64,000 nt of DNA from Chlorogloea sp. CCALA 695 (GTDB lineage Bacteria; Cyanobacteriota; Cyanobacteriia; Cyanobacteriales; Chroococcidiopsidaceae), in NCBI RefSeq assembly GCF_003003885.1, contig NZ_PVWN01000015.1:1-64000 (forward strand), given 5' to 3'. The position numbers and the translations under genes were made by a program. Under the pieces are notes generated by a model. That model had not been told where the DNA came from. It saw only the letters and a program-made list of their open reading frames with translations, and did no database searches. Below are positions 5,666 to 63,405 of this stretch, in pieces. The first letter of the stretch is position 1. Every line of letters begins with the position of its first letter.

Positions 5666-7394
5666 ATTAATCTCCTGTGATGTTTTAGTTGTCGGCAGTG
5701 GTACAGGCGGAACATCCGCAGCAATTCAAGCGGCGAGAAGTGGGGCTAAGACTATCCTTGTCAGCGAATTTGAGTGGCTAGGCGGAATGCTAACTTCTGC
5801 GGGGGTAGCTGCCCCTGATGGCAACGAATTACAAGCTTTTCAAACTGGGCTTTGGGGTGAATTTTTACAGCAGTTGCAACAAAAACAAATAGGCGGATTA
5901 AACAATAGTTGGGTAAGTTTTTTTAGCTACAATCCCCGCCTGGGTGCAGAAATATTTGCAGACTGGGTAAAAGAATTACCACTTTTACAATGGATTGCGG
6001 GAAGCGTACCTTTAGAAGTTATCAAGAATGGTAATGCAATTACTGGGGTAAGATTTGCTGATTTTACCGTTAAAGCCAAGATTACCTTAGATGCTACTGA
6101 GCTTGGAGACTTACTAGCATTAGCCGAAATTCCCTATCGTTGGGGTTGGGAATTACAAGCCCAATGGGGCGAAGTTAGTGCGCCAATTGCCGAAAATGAA
6201 TTAACTAAAACATACCCAATTCAAGCGCCTACTTGGGTAGTAATTATGCAAGAATTTGAAAGTGCGATCGCCCCCAAAATTCCCGCACCCCCAAATTACA
6301 ACCCCACAAAGTATACTGACGCTTGGGCAGACTACGGGCAAACAGAATTTTTAAACTACGGACGATTGCCAGGTAATCTATTTATGATTAACTGGCCCAA
6401 GCATGGTAATGATTACGCCGAAGACGTAAAACGTCTAATTGAATCAGAAACATCGCAACAGCAATTTTTGCAACAAAGCCTTTGGCATACCCAAGGTTTC
6501 GCTCACTTTATTCAATCTCAATTCGGGCGTAAATACGGGCTGGCAACGAATATTTTTTCTGTTAACGGCGGTGCTTATGCCATACATCCTTACTACCGCG
6601 AAAGTCGCCGTTTAGTAGGAATAAATACCATTATAGAGCAAGATATTTTACCTATATCTGGGGGAAATGTCGCCCAGTTACAACCGGAAAGCGTTGCTAT
6701 AGGCAACTACGCTAACGATCATCATTACCCTGGTGTAGACTTTCCCCTCCAGTCTAAATCTATCCGTTGGGGAGGACGCTGGACAGGTACACCCTTTACT
6801 ATTCCTTATAGTTGCCTTGTACCAGTGGAAACCGATGGTTTATTAGCCTGTGAAAAAAATATATCTGTTTCTCATGTCGCTAATGGTGCAACTAGGCTAC
6901 AACCTGTAGTCATGAATATTGGGCAAGCGGCGGGAATGGCGGCGGCGCTGTGTGTTGAATTGGGCTGTCAGCCGCGAGACTTGCCTATAAGTAAACTACA
7001 AAATGCCTTATTGCAAGCAAAAACTTCTATTATTCCCTTATTCAATTTGCCGCCAAATCATCCCGATTGGTTGTACTGGCAACGCTATTATTTAGAGCAT
7101 CTTGAAGCTTATCCTATTAGCGGCAACTGCCCTTGTAATCAAAGTCCCTTATCTCCCTTAGCACCTGATTCTCGCATCTTTGAGGGCATCTTCAACCGCC
7201 GTAGCGACCAAGATTATACGCTGACCTTAACGGAATCAATGCAGACATGGCAATTAGTAACAATGCGATCGCACATCAACGAACAATTACAAATCTGCCC
7301 CGATAATCAACCTCTCAAAGTTTGGGGAACTCTCAACCACTCAGGAAAATGGTTATTAGTGGAAGACCTAACACTTTTCATGACTAGGAAGTAA
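5655..7394 (+). CDS. FAD-dependent oxidoreductase (FAD_oxidored family)
   Basis: Predicted 579-residue flavoprotein. Residues 9-30 form the dinucleotide-binding fold (VLVVGSGTGGTSAAIQAA), followed by the WLGGMLTSAGV segment typical of the PF12831 FAD-dependent oxidoreductases often annotated as 'xanthan lyase-like'. Near the C-terminus, SHVANGATRLQPVVMNIGQAAG matches the second FAD-contacting segment of this family. No signal peptide is visible. The ATG lies inside the end of pepP (11-bp overlap), and the gene ends 65 bp before the GH2 gene, so it may be transcribed with the sugar genes. The family oxidises diverse substrates, and proximity to glycosidases, galT and galK makes a sugar or sugar-derived substrate plausible but unproven. 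The last 60 bp or so of the reading frame (7301-7360) are duplicated at 20595-20654. Confidence 0.85.
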   Translation: MQNELISCDVLVVGSGTGGTSAAIQAARSGAKTILVSEFEWLGGMLTSAGVAAPDGNELQAFQTGLWGEFLQQLQQKQIGGLNNSWVSFFSYNPRLGAEIFADWVKELPLLQWIAGSVPLEVIKNGNAITGVRFADFTVKAKITLDATELGDLLALAEIPYRWGWELQAQWGEVSAPIAENELTKTYPIQAPTWVVIMQEFESAIAPKIPAPPNYNPTKYTDAWADYGQTEFLNYGRLPGNLFMINWPKHGNDYAEDVKRLIESETSQQQFLQQSLWHTQGFAHFIQSQFGRKYGLATNIFSVNGGAYAIHPYYRESRRLVGINTIIEQDILPISGGNVAQLQPESVAIGNYANDHHYPGVDFPLQSKSIRWGGRWTGTPFTIPYSCLVPVETDGLLACEKNISVSHVANGATRLQPVVMNIGQAAGMAAALCVELGCQPRDLPISKLQNALLQAKTSIIPLFNLPPNHPDWLYWQRYYLEHLEAYPISGNCPCNQSPLSPLAPDSRIFEGIFNRRSDQDYTLTLTESMQTWQLVTMRSHINEQLQICPDNQPLKVWGTLNHSGKWLLVEDLTLFMTRK

Positions 7395-20354: not shown

Positions 20355-20766
20355 AGGAATTTTGCGATCGCATAGCTTAGGTTCTGCTCTTAAATTATAA
20401 ATAGACTGAATTTAATATCTTCCTCTTAAAGATAGTTATGATATATTCAGTAATCTATCTAAAGATAAAAAAGATTAATAAAGTTTGTAGCACTGAATAC
20501 AAACAACGGTGTTGAGTCAAATCCTATCCCCGGCTTGAATAATCGTTTAGGTAGCGAAGAAATCGTACATAAACGAGCAACTATAAATATGTACCGATAA
20601 CCAACCTCTCAAAGTTTGGGCAAATCTCAACCACTCAGGAAAATGGTTATTAGTTTAAGGAATTGAGTAACATTGCTCTCTTTCTAAGGATGCTGCCTAT
20701 ATCAGCGATAAGATTCCCTAAATGCTTATCGTTATACTAAAGACTAATTAAGCGCCAAGATAGACA
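20355..20766. other. 412-bp intergenic region holding a gene fragment copy
   Basis: This region separates the leftward 76-aa gene from the rightward Uma2 gene. It contains the 60-bp copy of the FAD oxidoreductase 3' end (20595-20654), a HIP1 site just after the 76-aa start codon, and otherwise AT-rich DNA. No RNA gene was recognised. Confidence 0.7.
20595..20654 (+). pseudogene. Displaced copy of the 3' end of the FAD oxidoreductase gene
   Basis: These 60 bases match 7301-7360 with only three substitutions by eye. In the original they encode the residues around KVWGTLNHSGKWLLVEDL near the C-terminus; here the copy would read KVWANLNHSGKWLLV and then stops (TTTAAG, TAA). A weaker resemblance continues about 20 bases upstream. 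No other part of the oxidoreductase gene is present, so this is a fragment rather than a second gene. Confidence 0.85.
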
Positions 20767-22889: not shown

Positions 22890-22901
22890 TGATATAGGTG
22901 T

Positions 22902-22926
22902 AGAGACGTTGCAATGCAGCGTCTCT
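22902..22926. repeat. AGAGACG...CGTCTCT dispersed hairpin repeat
   Basis: AGAGACG (22902-22908) pairs with CGTCTCT (22920-22926), loop rich in TTGCA. It sits between the convergent ctp and DUF1537 genes, where it could stop transcription. Members of the same family lie at 24368-24391 and 61866-61927. Confidence 0.7.
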
Positions 22927-25008: not shown

Positions 25009-25040
25009 GCGATAGCGCAAGCGCGCACGCAGGGCTTCGC
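25009..25040 (+). repeat. GC-rich 32-bp dispersed repeat, copy 1
   Basis: Begins GCGATAGCGCAAGCGCG and ends GCAGGGCTTCGC. Its exact reverse complement occurs at 39344-39375, inside a coding sequence, and a variant lies at 54727-54761. A shorter relative (GCAGGGCTTCGGC) is near 38312. Composition is far more GC-rich than the surroundings. This copy lies in the gap before the sorbosone dehydrogenase-like gene. Confidence 0.9.
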
Positions 25041-26416: not shown

Positions 26417-26493
26417 AATCTAGATGCCCTGATGGTAAGAAGTAGCAACTACCTTACCGCCGCTACCCAGCTAAAAGCCTTAGATAACTACAA

Positions 26494-26607
26494 ATTAAGG
26501 CATTGCTGAAAGTATGATGATTTTTCTACTGCAATTTTGTCTCCTCCTTCATACCGCATTGGGAATTGCCAATTACCAATTACCAATCACCAATTACCCA
26601 TTACCCA
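26494..26607 (+). repeat. MITE-like element plus heptamer repeats, copy A
   Basis: The first about 75 bases run from ATTAAGGCATTGCTGAAAG to ACCGCATTGGGAATTG and match the reverse complement of 47746-47826 with small gaps. They are followed by imperfect tandem CAATTACC / ATTACCC units (26569-26607). A short ORF across it is not convincing. The element provides the DNA immediately upstream of the Trp-rich protein gene. Confidence 0.75.
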
Positions 26608-26615
26608 AATTAATT

Positions 26616-36271: not shown

Positions 36272-36311
36272 TGGTCATTGAAAATTATTACCCATTACCC
36301 ATTACCCATTT
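36254..36311. repeat. Heptamer tandem repeats overlapping the cobD start and the rrf2 stop
   Basis: Tandem ATTGGTC units (36255-36280) followed by ATTACCC units (36287-36311). The first block supplies the cobD start codon and first codons; the second reaches the last bases of the Rrf2 gene (stop at 36310-36312). The same heptamers occur at 26569, 47707 and 63352. Confidence 0.85.
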
Positions 36312-36753
36312 AAACCACAAAACTCGTTGATTCTCCTTGAGATGCCTGCCAACTCCGGGCATCATAATAAAGATCGGCAAGAGTCATAGCATACAACGCT
36401 TCTGATAATTTTCGGTGCAATCTCCGCCACAACGTAAATGTTACCCAGTCTTCAGCTTGGGTATTGTTTGGGCTGTGATGGGGTAAAGGTTCGATGGTTT
36501 CGCCTACGGCGGCGAGAATTTGCCCTAAAGAAATTTTTTCGGGGGACTTAGCCAATTTATACCCCCCGGCTACACCACGCACGGATTCTACTAACCCCGC
36601 ACGACGCATTTCTATTAGTAATTTTTCTAAATAGGGGGCGGGAATATTTTGCCGCAAAGCAATGGTTTTTACAGCGATTGGCTTTTGACGTGGTTGCAAG
36701 CTCAAATCAAGTAAAGCCTTGACGCTATAATGTCCGCGAGTTGTTAATTTCAT
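36310..36753 (-). CDS. Rrf2 family transcriptional regulator without cluster cysteines
   Basis: Predicted 147-residue winged-helix regulator. MKLTTRGHYSVKALLDLS, then IPAPYLEKLLIEMRRAGLV and SVRGVAGGYKLAK are the canonical Rrf2 HTH and wing. IscR and NsrR ligate an Fe-S cluster through three cysteines around residues 90-105; this protein contains no cysteine at all. Its sensing must therefore differ, possibly like CymR, which is also cluster-free. It lies 38 bp upstream of cobD, same strand. No isc or cys operon is adjacent, so its targets are unknown. Confidence 0.92.
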   Translation of the reverse strand: MKLTTRGHYSVKALLDLSLQPRQKPIAVKTIALRQNIPAPYLEKLLIEMRRAGLVESVRGVAGGYKLAKSPEKISLGQILAAVGETIEPLPHHSPNNTQAEDWVTFTLWRRLHRKLSEALYAMTLADLYYDARSWQASQGESTSFVV

Positions 36754-38832: not shown

Positions 38833-40443
38833 TCAGCTTTGGCGCTTAATTAAAGTCCAACCTTCTCTTGTTCCCAATCGTTGCACAGATTTTAATCCTA
38901 GACTTTTAAGCTTAGTCGGTTCGACGAGTAAGTAGGGGTTTGATTGTTGCCAGTATCTTTGTAGTTCGTCGTTAGTGGCGGGAATGACTTGGCGATCGCT
39001 ATAAAAGTTTAAGGATGGTCGATGATAGGGAAAAGAAGTATAAATTTTTTGCTGTGGGGTTGTGTTGCTTTGAATCATCGCCGCCACAGGTTTTACTGGG
39101 TAAGCTTCGGCTAATTCCCATACCCAATGACGAGAAGTCACAAATAAAGCTAGGGAAAGATAACAACCCCAAAATAAAATTACGATAAATTGGCGATCGC
39201 CTTCTTGGGCTAAAATTGCCGCAGTGGTCATTGTCAGCGCGATACAAGTTAAAATTGTTTGCAATTGCAAGTCTTTGGCGGGACTTAGGGGACTAAAGTA
39301 TAAGCTACCACCCCAGGAAATTAAGGCAAGGATTGTGAGAATAGCGAAGCCCTGCGTGCGCGCTTGCGCTATCGCCAATCGGGAATAACTTAAGCGTGGT
39401 TTGTGCCAAACTTGGGTTAGCTGTACTCCCACGGCTAAAGCAAAAGCGGGGTAAACGGGTAAAACGTACCAAGGCAATTTAGTAGTCATTACAGAAATTG
39501 TCAGTAAGTAAACACCCAGCCAAACAACAATTAGTTTGGAGTAGCTGATATTGCTATTAAGCCAAGCAAAACGAAATCCTTGGGGCAAAAATAGCAGCCA
39601 AGGGAAAGAATATTTAACAATTTCTAGTAAGTAATACCAAGAGGGCTGGGCGTGGTTTTCGACTCCTTGCCAAATTCGATTGAGAGACTGAGTAACTATA
39701 GCAGTTTGGGTAAAAAAGCTACCGTAATGCAACCACTGGGCAGTATACCAACTAACGACAGGAGTAATACCAATTGCTACTCCTAGCCATAAATACCAAC
39801 TGGTAAGTAAGCGTGGCGTATCCCAGAACAGAAATAATAAGGCGATCGCACCTAATAATAAACCTAAAAGCCCCTTAGTAAAGCAAATTAATCCTAAACC
39901 AACTCCTACACCCAAGCAGTAGCGCAAATTTCGCCTACTTCGCAACACGCACAAAATTGTAAATATAAAAAAACTGACTACCGCGCCATCCAACATTGCA
40001 AGTCGTCCGTGACGTACCATTGGCAGCATAGTTAAATAGACTAAACTTGCAAAAATAGCCGTTATTCGTTGCGGGAATATTTCTCGCCCAACACTGTAAA
40101 GTAAGGGGACAGAAAGCGCCGTCAAAATTGCCCCAGGTAAGCGCGAAGTCCATTCATTTACCCCACCAAGGCGGTAAGCCAAAGCAATCAGCCAATGGAT
40201 AAGCGGTGGTTTGTTTAAGTAAGGTTCCCCGCCCAAGGTAGGATAAAGCCAAGCATTCGTTGCAATAGGATGAAGCGAAATTTCCCGCGCAACTTGAGCA
40301 ACTGTACCCTCATCCCAATCTCTTAGTGGTACGCCGCCCAAATTGAGCGTAAATAGTATTAGTGCAGCGATTAATAATCCTAAAACCCACAACCAATCTA
40401 ATAAACGTCTTTGGGTGAAATTTTTATAATACAAACGAGCCAT
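38833..40443 (-). CDS. GT39/ArnT-like membrane glycosyltransferase
   Basis: Predicted 536-residue polytopic GT-C enzyme. The first luminal loop carries the RDWDEGTVAQVAREI motif with the catalytic acidic residues, followed by YLNKPPLIHWLIALAYR. There are about ten hydrophobic helices and a C-terminal periplasmic domain (FYSDRQVIPATNDELQRYWQ). Family members transfer a sugar from a polyprenyl-phosphate donor to protein or lipid A on the periplasmic side. The acceptor here is unknown. A 32-bp dispersed repeat (39344-39375) lies in frame and encodes AIAQARTQGFA around residues 357-366, next to a transmembrane segment; the gene stays open across it. The upstream recombinase-like gene is 20 bp away, so they may be co-transcribed. 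Confidence 0.9.
   Translation of the reverse strand: MARLYYKNFTQRRLLDWLWVLGLLIAALILFTLNLGGVPLRDWDEGTVAQVAREISLHPIATNAWLYPTLGGEPYLNKPPLIHWLIALAYRLGGVNEWTSRLPGAILTALSVPLLYSVGREIFPQRITAIFASLVYLTMLPMVRHGRLAMLDGAVVSFFIFTILCVLRSRRNLRYCLGVGVGLGLICFTKGLLGLLLGAIALLFLFWDTPRLLTSWYLWLGVAIGITPVVSWYTAQWLHYGSFFTQTAIVTQSLNRIWQGVENHAQPSWYYLLEIVKYSFPWLLFLPQGFRFAWLNSNISYSKLIVVWLGVYLLTISVMTTKLPWYVLPVYPAFALAVGVQLTQVWHKPRLSYSRLAIAQARTQGFAILTILALISWGGSLYFSPLSPAKDLQLQTILTCIALTMTTAAILAQEGDRQFIVILFWGCYLSLALFVTSRHWVWELAEAYPVKPVAAMIQSNTTPQQKIYTSFPYHRPSLNFYSDRQVIPATNDELQRYWQQSNPYLLVEPTKLKSLGLKSVQRLGTREGWTLIKRQS
39344..39375 (-). repeat. GC-rich 32-bp dispersed repeat, copy 2, inside the GT39 coding sequence
   Basis: Exact reverse complement of 25009-25040. 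The insert keeps the reading frame and contributes residues AIAQARTQGFA to the protein. Exact identity of two copies 14 kb apart suggests recent spread or ongoing homogenisation. Confidence 0.95.
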
Positions 40444-46921: not shown

Positions 46922-47707
46922 ATGCTCGTTAATTTAATTGCTGATTATGGCAACGGCGATCCAGCCTTTACAGAAGTAACGCAACGGCTTTCTATGGGCT
47001 TACCTAATGCTCAAATTTATTGTCTCTCTGTACCGCCTTTTAGTACCTTAGCGACAGGCTTCTGGATTGCTCAATTAGGGCTTAATCCAGGCGCAGAAAA
47101 CCGCTTAATTTACCACAACTGCGCCCCCCGTCAAGATGACTCCGAACCAAGGATAGATAATGAAGGTGAAGGACTTACTTATGCACTCTTGCCTAATGGA
47201 GTCAAAGTAGTAGGAGTAATTGCAGGTTATACTTTGTCCTTCATTAAAGACTATGCCGAAGTTATCCACAGTATAAAAGTATCACGCGCAGGTTCGCAAT
47301 TTCGCTCCCGCGATGTGTTTCCAATCGCCACTATAGCGATCGCAAATGGAGACTTTAGCCTGCTAGGAGACGAGTTAAACCCCAATCAAATACCGAATGT
47401 ACCAGGCGATCGCGTAGCTTGGGTTGATGGCTACGGTAATATTAAAACTACAATTTCTAGCGATAGTCTTAGTTTAAAACCAGAATCTAAAGTAGTAATC
47501 AGAGTTGGCGATGTAGTCAGCGACGCGGTTTATTCTGACGGTAGCTTTAAAGTCCCTGAAGGAACATTAGCCTTTTCTCCTGGTAGTTCGGGTTGGGATA
47601 AAAATGGTCAACCTCTGCGGTGGATGGAGTTATTTTTGCGCGGGGGAAATGCTTGGGAACGTTTTGGCAAACCCCGGATTAATCAAGTTGTGACAATCTT
47701 AAATTAG
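46922..47707 (+). CDS. SAM hydroxide adenosyltransferase-type protein (DUF62)
   Basis: Predicted 261-residue protein of the DUF62 family, which includes SAM hydrolases and the fluorinase/chlorinase enzymes. NLIADYGNGDPAFTEVTQRL at the N-terminus holds the conserved aspartates, with VAWVDGYGNIKTTIS and ELFLRGGNAWERFG in the C-terminal barrel. The family mostly hydrolyses SAM to adenosine and methionine; halogenase activity is restricted to a few members and is not implied. A MITE-like element starts right at its stop codon. Confidence 0.85.
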   Translation: MLVNLIADYGNGDPAFTEVTQRLSMGLPNAQIYCLSVPPFSTLATGFWIAQLGLNPGAENRLIYHNCAPRQDDSEPRIDNEGEGLTYALLPNGVKVVGVIAGYTLSFIKDYAEVIHSIKVSRAGSQFRSRDVFPIATIAIANGDFSLLGDELNPNQIPNVPGDRVAWVDGYGNIKTTISSDSLSLKPESKVVIRVGDVVSDAVYSDGSFKVPEGTLAFSPGSSGWDKNGQPLRWMELFLRGGNAWERFGKPRINQVVTILN

Positions 47708-47826
47708 GTAATGGGTAATTGGTAATTGGTAGTAATTTCAATGAACAATTCCCAATGCGGTATGAATGAGGGAGACAAAAGAGTTGCAGAAAGGGAAAAT
47801 CATCATACTTTCAGCAACGCCTTAAA
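47707..47826 (-). repeat. MITE-like element plus heptamer repeats, copy B (inverted relative to copy A)
   Basis: Tandem AATGGGT/AATTGGT units (47707-47732) followed by about 80 bases whose reverse complement matches 26494-26568, including TTGCTGAAAGTATGATGA and ATACCGCATTGGGAATTG. It fills most of the gap between DUF62 and coaX. No transposase is encoded. Confidence 0.75.
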
Positions 47827-47860
47827 TTAAGGAGAGTTTTACAGAGCGCTCGCTAGTAGC

Positions 47861-54726: not shown

Positions 54727-54761
54727 GCGAAGCCCGTTACCGGGCGCGCTTGCGCTATCGC
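54727..54761 (-). repeat. GC-rich dispersed repeat, copy 3 (variant centre)
   Basis: Shares the ends GCGAAGCCC and GCGCTTGCGCTATCGC with the 32-bp copies at 25009 and 39344, but the centre is GTTACCGGGC, making it 35 bp. It lies in the gap upstream of the diguanylate cyclase gene. Confidence 0.85.
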
Positions 54762-61865: not shown

Positions 61866-61927
61866 TAGAGCGGTGCAACGTCTCTACAATAATAAAATAT
61901 GGAGACGTTGCACTGCAACGTCTCTAC
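61866..61927. repeat. Two AGAGACG...CGTCTCT hairpin repeats in tandem
   Basis: A degenerate unit (GTAGAG...CTCTAC, 61865-61887) is followed by a perfect one: GAGACGTTGCA (61902-61912) and its complement (61914-61924). They lie between the convergent ftsH and M23 genes and may terminate both. Same family as 22902 and 24368. Confidence 0.8.
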
Positions 61928-61933
61928 AACAAT

Positions 61934-62614
61934 TTAAAATTCTGCAACTTTGCTATTGACTAACTGCTGCTGACTAACGGCGGCTTTTTGAATATTTGAG
62001 GGTTGTTGAGCATACATCGCCCTCAACACCAACGCCGGATCTACATAATTGTTGCCATACTTAAGCCCCCAATGCAAGTGAGGACCTGTAGTTCGTCCAG
62101 TCATGCCTACGCGCCCGATTCGAGTCCCTGCGCCTAATACTTGACCTTCTTGAATTTGTAAGCCGCCTTCACGATCAACTAAATAGCGATCGCTTCCATT
62201 TTTCTCTACGTTTCCTTTCATGTGACAATACTTATGTTCCCACTGCCCCGATTGAATTATGATGTGGGTTCCGCAAGCGCTCTTATCAGCTACTTTGACA
62301 ACCTTTCCTGCCCACCAACTACGAATATAACTCCCTTGGGGTGCAGCTAAGTCTAAACCGCCGTGAAATTCCCAATTAGAGCCACCCGTCGCCGAGCGCC
62401 GATAGCCAAAAGGTGAACTATAACCGCGAAAATTCTCTACAGGAAAAGACGCACCACGCCAAGTATTTCTACTTGCTACTTGGTTTTCCTCTGCTTCTAA
62501 AGCTTTAACGCTTTGTTGCCCAGATAAAAAAGCTGGTGCAGTAATTATACTTATAACAGCTAACAATATTTGCAGATAACGAGTCTGACGATAGGGTTTA
62601 GATAATTGGCTCAT
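61934..62614 (-). CDS. M23 family peptidase (LytM/NlpD-type, exported)
   Basis: Predicted 226-residue exported peptidoglycan endopeptidase or its regulator. Signal region up to about residue 45 (ILLAVISIITAPAFLSG). The catalytic zinc site is present: FHGGLDLA supplies His and Asp, and GPHLHWGL the HxH. The start ATG 62614 has GAGGAG 8 bases upstream; a GTG at 62623 overlaps that RBS and is less likely. It acts on the cell wall in the periplasm. Confidence 0.9.
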   Translation of the reverse strand: MSQLSKPYRQTRYLQILLAVISIITAPAFLSGQQSVKALEAEENQVASRNTWRGASFPVENFRGYSSPFGYRRSATGGSNWEFHGGLDLAAPQGSYIRSWWAGKVVKVADKSACGTHIIIQSGQWEHKYCHMKGNVEKNGSDRYLVDREGGLQIQEGQVLGAGTRIGRVGMTGRTTGPHLHWGLKYGNNYVDPALVLRAMYAQQPSNIQKAAVSQQQLVNSKVAEF

Positions 62615-62964: not shown

Positions 62965-63351
62965 ATGTTTAACGATATTTTTCCTTTTAGGTTTGATCTA
63001 AATGCTAGTGCGATCGCTGGGGCGAGTTTGTGGTCATTGGCACTATACCTAGGATTTTCACCCTTTAGCGACTGGTTAACTTTGCAACTGCAACGCTGGT
63101 TTAACTTTGCCGAGCGGAGTTTATACACCAGCGCCAAAGAATTTGAACGTACTCGCAAAGCCAGAGAATCGCAAAATGCTTTTTATGCGTCAATTTTTAG
63201 CATCTTACCATTTTTAGGTTTGGGCGCACTATGTAATTACGGTGTGGAATTGGGCTTAGGCGGTAGTTGGGCGATTAGTATGGGAGTTATTGCCTGTATG
63301 GGTTGTGGGGTTTATGAGTTAGGGCGCAGAGATGGGCAATCTTCGGAATGA
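62965..63351 (+). CDS. Small membrane protein of unknown function
   Basis: Predicted 128-residue protein with hydrophobic segments at about 14-31 (IAGASLWSLALYLGFS) and in the C-terminal half (SIFSILPFLGLGALCNYGVE, SWAISMGVIACMGCGVYEL). The middle (RWFNFAERSLYTSAKEFERT) is amphipathic and charged. I do not recognise a family. The ATG at 62965 follows a HIP1 site with no strong RBS. Confidence 0.7.
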   Translation: MFNDIFPFRFDLNASAIAGASLWSLALYLGFSPFSDWLTLQLQRWFNFAERSLYTSAKEFERTRKARESQNAFYASIFSILPFLGLGALCNYGVELGLGGSWAISMGVIACMGCGVYELGRRDGQSSE

Positions 63352-63405
63352 GGGTAATGGGTAATGGGTAATAGGTCATTGGTCATTACCCATCACCTAT
63401 TACCT
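63352..63405. repeat. Heptamer tandem repeats forming the end of the LpxB-related gene
   Basis: Units of GGGTAAT / ATTGGTC / ATTACCC arranged as an inverted pair (63352-63405). They overlap the last eight codons of the leftward gene, so its C-terminus VKEVIGDG and stop codon come from repeat DNA. Confidence 0.8.

Follow-up and report, generated by a model that had tools for sequence, protein, structure and literature searches.

The DNA analyzed here, referred to as the window, is a 64,000-nt stretch of contig 62 of the 5.23-Mb draft genome of Chlorogloea sp. CCALA 695, which consists of 168 contigs and is designated G000. The window includes a gene coding for a membrane glycosyltransferase that carries a 32-nt repeat within its reading frame, and an identical copy and a longer variant of this repeat are found elsewhere in the window (Table 1). 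The plus-strand sequence of the copy in the gene is the exact reverse complement of the identical copy, and the identity stops at exactly 32 nt on both sides. The peptide AIAQARTQGFA, read in phase 0, comprises residues 357-367 and is directly followed by a hydrophobic stretch. The original prediction had described an exact 32-nt repeat at this position, complementary to the intergenic copy and translated in frame beside a membrane segment, as well as a third variant; each of these was borne out, the variant being a 35-nt version of the element.

Table 1. Copies of the element in the window and the gene that hosts one of them.
Feature	Coordinates	Strand	Description
Subtype A copy	39344..39375	-	32 nt including both HIP1 halves, 24 nt net; within the glycosyltransferase gene, in-frame AIAQARTQGFA
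Host gene, 536-aa membrane protein	38833..40443	-	Pfam PMT_2 (PF13231), PMT (PF02366)
Identical subtype A copy	25009..25040	+	Between annotated ORFs; counterpart site is GCGATCGC in G005 and has another core in G001
Subtype B copy	54727..54761	-	35 nt including HIP1 halves, 27 nt net; between ORFs

Other repeated sequences are present in the window. A repeat of about 130 bp with TTACCCA-like runs is present as two imperfect inverted copies at 26492-26613 and 47699-47828, and similar runs occur at 36287-36314 and 63347-63400. A 109-nt direct repeat, 83% identical, is found at 7257-7365 and 20551-20659, and repeats built on TGCAACGTCTCTACA at 22894-22925 and 61874-61940. Elsewhere in the draft genome, contig C56 begins (L015, positions 1-19) with agatgtgtataagagacag, presumably a residual Nextera adapter sequence.

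The residues of the insert are absent from 42 of 43 relatives of the glycosyltransferase, several of which have other, unrelated inserts in the same loop, which is variable in length; the 43rd and closest one, L039 (uncultured Aliterella sp.), has a different 27-nt core at the site. L039, L040 (Chroococcus sp. CMT-3BRIN-NPC107) and L072 (Aliterella atlantica CENA595), all three among the closest relatives, were treated as the same records as the loci of genomes G001, G003 and G002, respectively, because those loci contain their 600-nt stretches. The empty version of the loop in L040 reads SAIAVLT, and its junction at the DNA level is exactly GCGATCGC, the palindromic cyanobacterial octamer HIP1, of which there are 72 occurrences in the window. 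Since L040 reads GCGATCGC where the element stands, the insertion has the form GCGA-core-TCGC with a net length of 24 nt, and the net gain to the protein is eight residues because the AI at the start of the peptide and the A at its end are already encoded by the HIP1 target. The proposal that repeat DNA had become protein sequence is thus supported by comparison with an empty relative, and a search for the same residues in relatives without the repeat, which would have contradicted it, left it standing, the 42 proteins being without them. As to whether the insert is unique to this strain, a question that the original prediction had raised, the particular residues are missing from those 42 relatives, but the site itself is filled in the sister genome G001 as well, by another core: the peptide is AIAQARTQGFA in G000, from subtype A, and AIAQAGTVTGFA in G001, from a third core.

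A search of G000 with the 18-nt left part of the element produced 55 exact matches, and 66 distinct copies were identified within two mismatches in the fetched loci. The main subtypes are A (GCGATAGCGCAAGCGCGCACGCAGGGCTTCGC) and B (GCGATAGCGCAAGCGCGCCCGGTAACGGGCTTCGC), with a length of 32-35 nt when the HIP1 halves are included and a net length that in G000 is mostly 24 nt (A) or 27 nt (B). The looser pattern GCGAT-gap-GGGCTWCGC had 67 matches in G000, and a pattern search applied to both genomes found 70 in G000 and 45 in G001. Controls with the reversed patterns gave 0, 3, 4 and 1 matches, respectively, ruling out chance or low complexity as the source of the family. A conserved fold was also considered and rejected, the single-sequence folding signal being weak for both subtypes: the z values for the forward strand were -1.17 (A) and -2.09 (B) as DNA and -0.55 and -1.53 as RNA, and those for the reverse strand were 0.27 and -2.12 as DNA and -0.11 and -0.71 as RNA.

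The exact 18-mer was found in six of 40 genomes, G000 included (G000, 55; G001, 16; G003, 10; G004, 16; G005, 8; G038, 1). The window-type element is concentrated in one genus among the 28 searched, plus the single copy in G038, a genome of another family. The 18-mer is absent from G002, which belongs to the same genus, and from all 13 other family genomes covered by the search, which indicates that the filled state is derived.

The flanks on either side of the HIP1 octamer were aligned to their counterparts in five same-genus genomes at 64 sites, of which 20 are in or plausibly in ORFs (21 copies; one of the 20, L118, is doubtful as a gene) and 44 are others; one of the 66 copies, the plus-strand copy of L106, which has no clear right end, was left out. 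A clear unoccupied comparator was available at 43 of the 64 sites. It was HIP1 at 34 (16 of the 20 ORF sites and 18 of the 44 others), counting as HIP1 the anchor-shortened readings CGATCGC, GATCGC, GCGATCG and GCGATC as well as HIP1 with adjoining extra bases, while it had one or two mismatches at 4 sites and was unlike HIP1 at 5. The other 21 sites had no clear unoccupied comparator, a case being scored as unclear if an anchor was below 60% identity or the anchors were more than 80 nt apart; the subtype B copy of the window has no comparator in the five genomes. When only the nearest comparator and strict 8-mers were taken (n = 64), 23 sites matched HIP1 exactly and 8 with at most two mismatches; the comparator was occupied at 13 sites, missing at 13 and of some other kind at 7. 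Because the G000 sites had been chosen by the left half of the core, which introduces an ascertainment bias, the search was repeated reciprocally from G001: the counterparts of 29 G001 copies in G000 were clearly unoccupied in 14 cases, occupied in 4, ambiguous in 1, unclear in 3 and missing in 7. Five of the 14 unoccupied counterparts are exact HIP1, 6 are within two mismatches and 3 have three mismatches. Subtypes A and B fit insertion between nucleotides 3 and 4 and between nucleotides 4 and 5 of HIP1 equally (reverse reading), and some G001 cores (GCGACGCG...) fit only the latter. No target duplication was seen at the filled and empty counterpart sites.

These comparisons point to a non-autonomous, target-specific small mobile element, a reading to which we assign a probability of roughly 0.87, its movement being deduced from presence and absence between draft genomes. 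The mobile part would be the core, mostly 24 nt (A) or 27 nt (B) in G000, set between the halves of HIP1. Two unoccupied counterparts, L137 in G001 and L290 in G000, have, in place of GCGATCGC, the sequence GCGATAGC, which is the element's left end, and this could be an excision scar or a simple mutation. As possible scars they would agree with the filled state being ancestral, with the relatives returned to HIP1 by a precise deletion of the core, and the near relative G005 is empty at some sites that are filled in both G000 and G001, so that some losses are possible. As a general explanation, ancestral filling is nevertheless very unlikely, given that the exact 18-mer is absent from G002 and the 13 other searched family genomes and that, apart from the closest one, all of the 43 glycosyltransferase relatives are without the insert.

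Repeats that share the GCGAT...GGGCTWCGC frame and have cores of their own were found in other families of the order: the 23-nt repeats GCGATCCTCTTCGAGGGCTTCGC in G019 and GCGATGTCTACGACGGGCTACGC in G038, and GCGATGCCTGCGGCGGGCTACGC in G020, the last of which we take to be SDR5. By eye, the inner stems of the G019, G038 and G020 repeats differ in a paired manner (GCC/GGC, GTC/GAC and CCTC/GAGG). SDR5 is reportedly a small dispersed repeat of Nostoc and relatives, described by Elhai et al. in 2008, and to our knowledge it is confined to the Nostoc-type subgroup of cyanobacteria. Like SDR5, the element described here is tiny, non-autonomous and located within HIP1, and the GCGAT-core-GGGCTWCGC frame is common to both if the G020 repeat is indeed SDR5. 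In contrast, only the right end GGGCTWCGC is shared, the core differs (24-27 nt net versus 15 nt in the G020 repeat), the host is the Aliterella group, and the cores change at fixed sites; the element is SDR5-like and is not SDR5 itself. Insertion of SDR5 into HIP1, exactly between nucleotides 3 and 4, has been reported (PMC4390886).

The core was probably moved in trans by a putative enzyme that cuts or recognizes HIP1. Enzymes acting in trans are also needed by REP and REPIN sequences, which are short, dispersed and GC-rich (PMC3116915, PMC6006769); REP sequences inserted with the frame kept are reported within tnpA-REP genes, a subclass that is abundant in Cyanobacteria (PMC6006769). Our element, being short, GC-rich, dispersed and non-autonomous, could then belong to the REP-type palindromes and have a TnpA-REP-like Y1 (HUH) transposase as its mover, and full Y1 matches do exist in G002 and G004. 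The distribution of Y1 genes makes this improbable: G000, with most copies, has as its sole Y1 match a fragment with an internal stop, no intact Y1 transposase being found there in a search with one Pfam family (PF01797); G001 and G003 have no match and G005 has a fragment, all three being incomplete drafts; and G002 has two matches yet is without the 18-mer. Moreover, no element lies within the fetched Y1 loci, the canonical GT[AG]G foot is absent from subtypes A and B on both strands, and the element, unlike REP, has an octamer as its target.

The mobile element with HIP1 as its target would be expected to enter genes, since HIP1 is common in them: 63 of the 72 octamers of the window are within ORFs of at least 120 amino acids, and part of the insertions therefore hit reading frames. 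In a strict coding test, in which the element was replaced by HIP1 and both flanks were required to be open and coding-like, 13 of the 66 copies in G000 were coding, and a lenient count gave 21 of 66. The genic share is thus lower for the copies than for HIP1 itself, and the location of most copies outside genes probably reflects selection against genic ones. The genome-wide count and the frame check suggested by the original prediction accordingly gave about 66 copies, mostly outside genes, with the frame kept in all 13 strictly coding copies of G000; in G001, 9 of 45 copies were coding and 7 of these 9 kept the frame, both frame-breakers being 28-nt inserts (small numbers). That the target is HIP1, that the family of about 66 copies lies mostly outside genes and that the glycosyltransferase site is shared with a sister genome are supported results that go beyond that prediction. 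Five of the six readings are open in both subtypes, the exception being a TAG in forward phase 2, a phase unused in the strict coding set. As the lengths of the common cores are divisible by three and five of six readings are free of stops, a protein usually gains eight or nine residues and stays whole. Copies outside genes likewise have A and B cores with lengths divisible by three, and selection on insert length is not separable here.

The host genes include those for a polyketide synthase, a hybrid sensor kinase and an HlyD protein, as well as PhoD, thioesterase, pyroglutamyl-peptidase-like, Germane, MerR-CbiC, NAGPA, SpoIID and XisI proteins. The polyketide synthase ORF (L018, G000:C57:117867-120884) has three copies, of which two overlap, one inside or beside the other, and its counterpart in G005 has plain HIP1 at both places. 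Two paralogous short genes, L006 (G000:C138) and L028 (G000:C103), carry the element near the same codon (about residues 34 and 36) in opposite orientations, which is expected because the target is palindromic. Over the unique coding sites of G000 and G001, the element is in forward orientation at 16 of 20 (P = 0.0014 against the HIP1-phase expectation of 51/114 and 0.006 against one half), or at 15 of 19 with the two overlapping polyketide synthase copies taken as one; this bias is suggestive only. It is what would be seen if in-frame inserts had been kept because their peptides are useful to the host proteins, and better tolerance of forward peptides would yield the same bias. Usefulness is in fact barely credible as the explanation: near relatives are without the insert in the same genes, the host genes are unrelated to each other, and in the glycosyltransferase the length of the loop varies among relatives and the core of G001 differs. 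In the glycosyltransferase, the extra residues most likely represent a by-product that the variable-length loop tolerates, not a new function.

Repeat DNA in frame within unrelated protein genes is also characteristic of the Rickettsia palindromic elements, for which in-frame insertion in protein genes is described (PMC10969869). These are about 150 bp long, in contrast to the 24-27 nt found here, where in addition the target is a fixed octamer and most copies are outside genes. In-frame insertion of repeats (Rickettsia palindromic elements, REP in tnpA-REP) and insertion into HIP1 (SDR5) are, then, already known. This HIP1-inserted family, for its part, is not described by title or abstract in the openly available literature among the matches listed, which is weak evidence of novelty.

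Twenty sites are filled in both G000 and G001, 16 of them found from G000 and 4 from G001. The cores at these sites differ by at least four edits over 31-37 nt in 17 cases and by one edit in 3, although among the 17 the pair L276/L313 is more readily explained by a small deletion together with substitutions, and the left flanks of the second L114 copy match poorly. In nine pairs only one half of the core has been replaced: the right half is kept within one edit and the left changed in L030, L096, L101, L115, L034 (where the right half kept is a rare one) and L270/L306, and the left half is kept and the right changed in L109, L002 and L014. Among matches ending in GGGCTTCGC, the common left half and other left halves number 66 versus 2 in G000 and 21 versus 22 in G001 (Fisher, 1.8e-9), with the left halves classed by eye and one overlapping duplicate and one chance-like row dropped per genome. 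Counts of rooted sites for the tree of G000, G001 and G005 were 56, 46 and 15, and leave the branching order and the order of gain and loss unsettled; the mean identities of that comparison, lowered by misaligned ends and paralogues, were set aside.

Extrapolating from 72 octamers per 64 kb, we estimate that if about 70 insertions were scattered randomly over several thousand HIP1 sites, fewer than one site would be shared. Either inheritance with later exchange of the core or a few very hot sites are therefore needed. That the differences arose because a few very hot HIP1 sites received insertions independently has, in our judgment, close to even odds. At several sites with different cores in G000 and G001 (L109, L002, L115, L009 and L034, for example), HIP1 is empty in G005, as such insertions would leave it; against them stand the low sharing estimated for random insertion and the nine half-kept pairs, which insertion of whole cores explains only if many half-matching core types circulate. 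Exchange in place, which we hold tentatively and somewhat short of even odds on the pattern of the cores, would make the filled HIP1 a socket that keeps its position between strains with similar flanks while the left or right half of its core is replaced, through conversion by other copies or through repeated excision and re-insertion into that HIP1. The data may fit conversion, excision with re-insertion and hot-spot insertion alike. As the common cores are multiples of three, exchange in place could rewrite a short peptide of a protein, as with AIAQARTQGFA and AIAQAGTVTGFA.

The abundance of HIP1 in cyanobacterial genomes is treated as an open question in PMC4390886, and the family also bears on the open question of how elements too small to encode anything move. 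Since the genus has dozens of filled and empty pairs at single-site resolution, together with pairs of different cores at the same site, both questions can be tested directly. The family also provides a clear case of 24-27 nt of mobile DNA read as protein.
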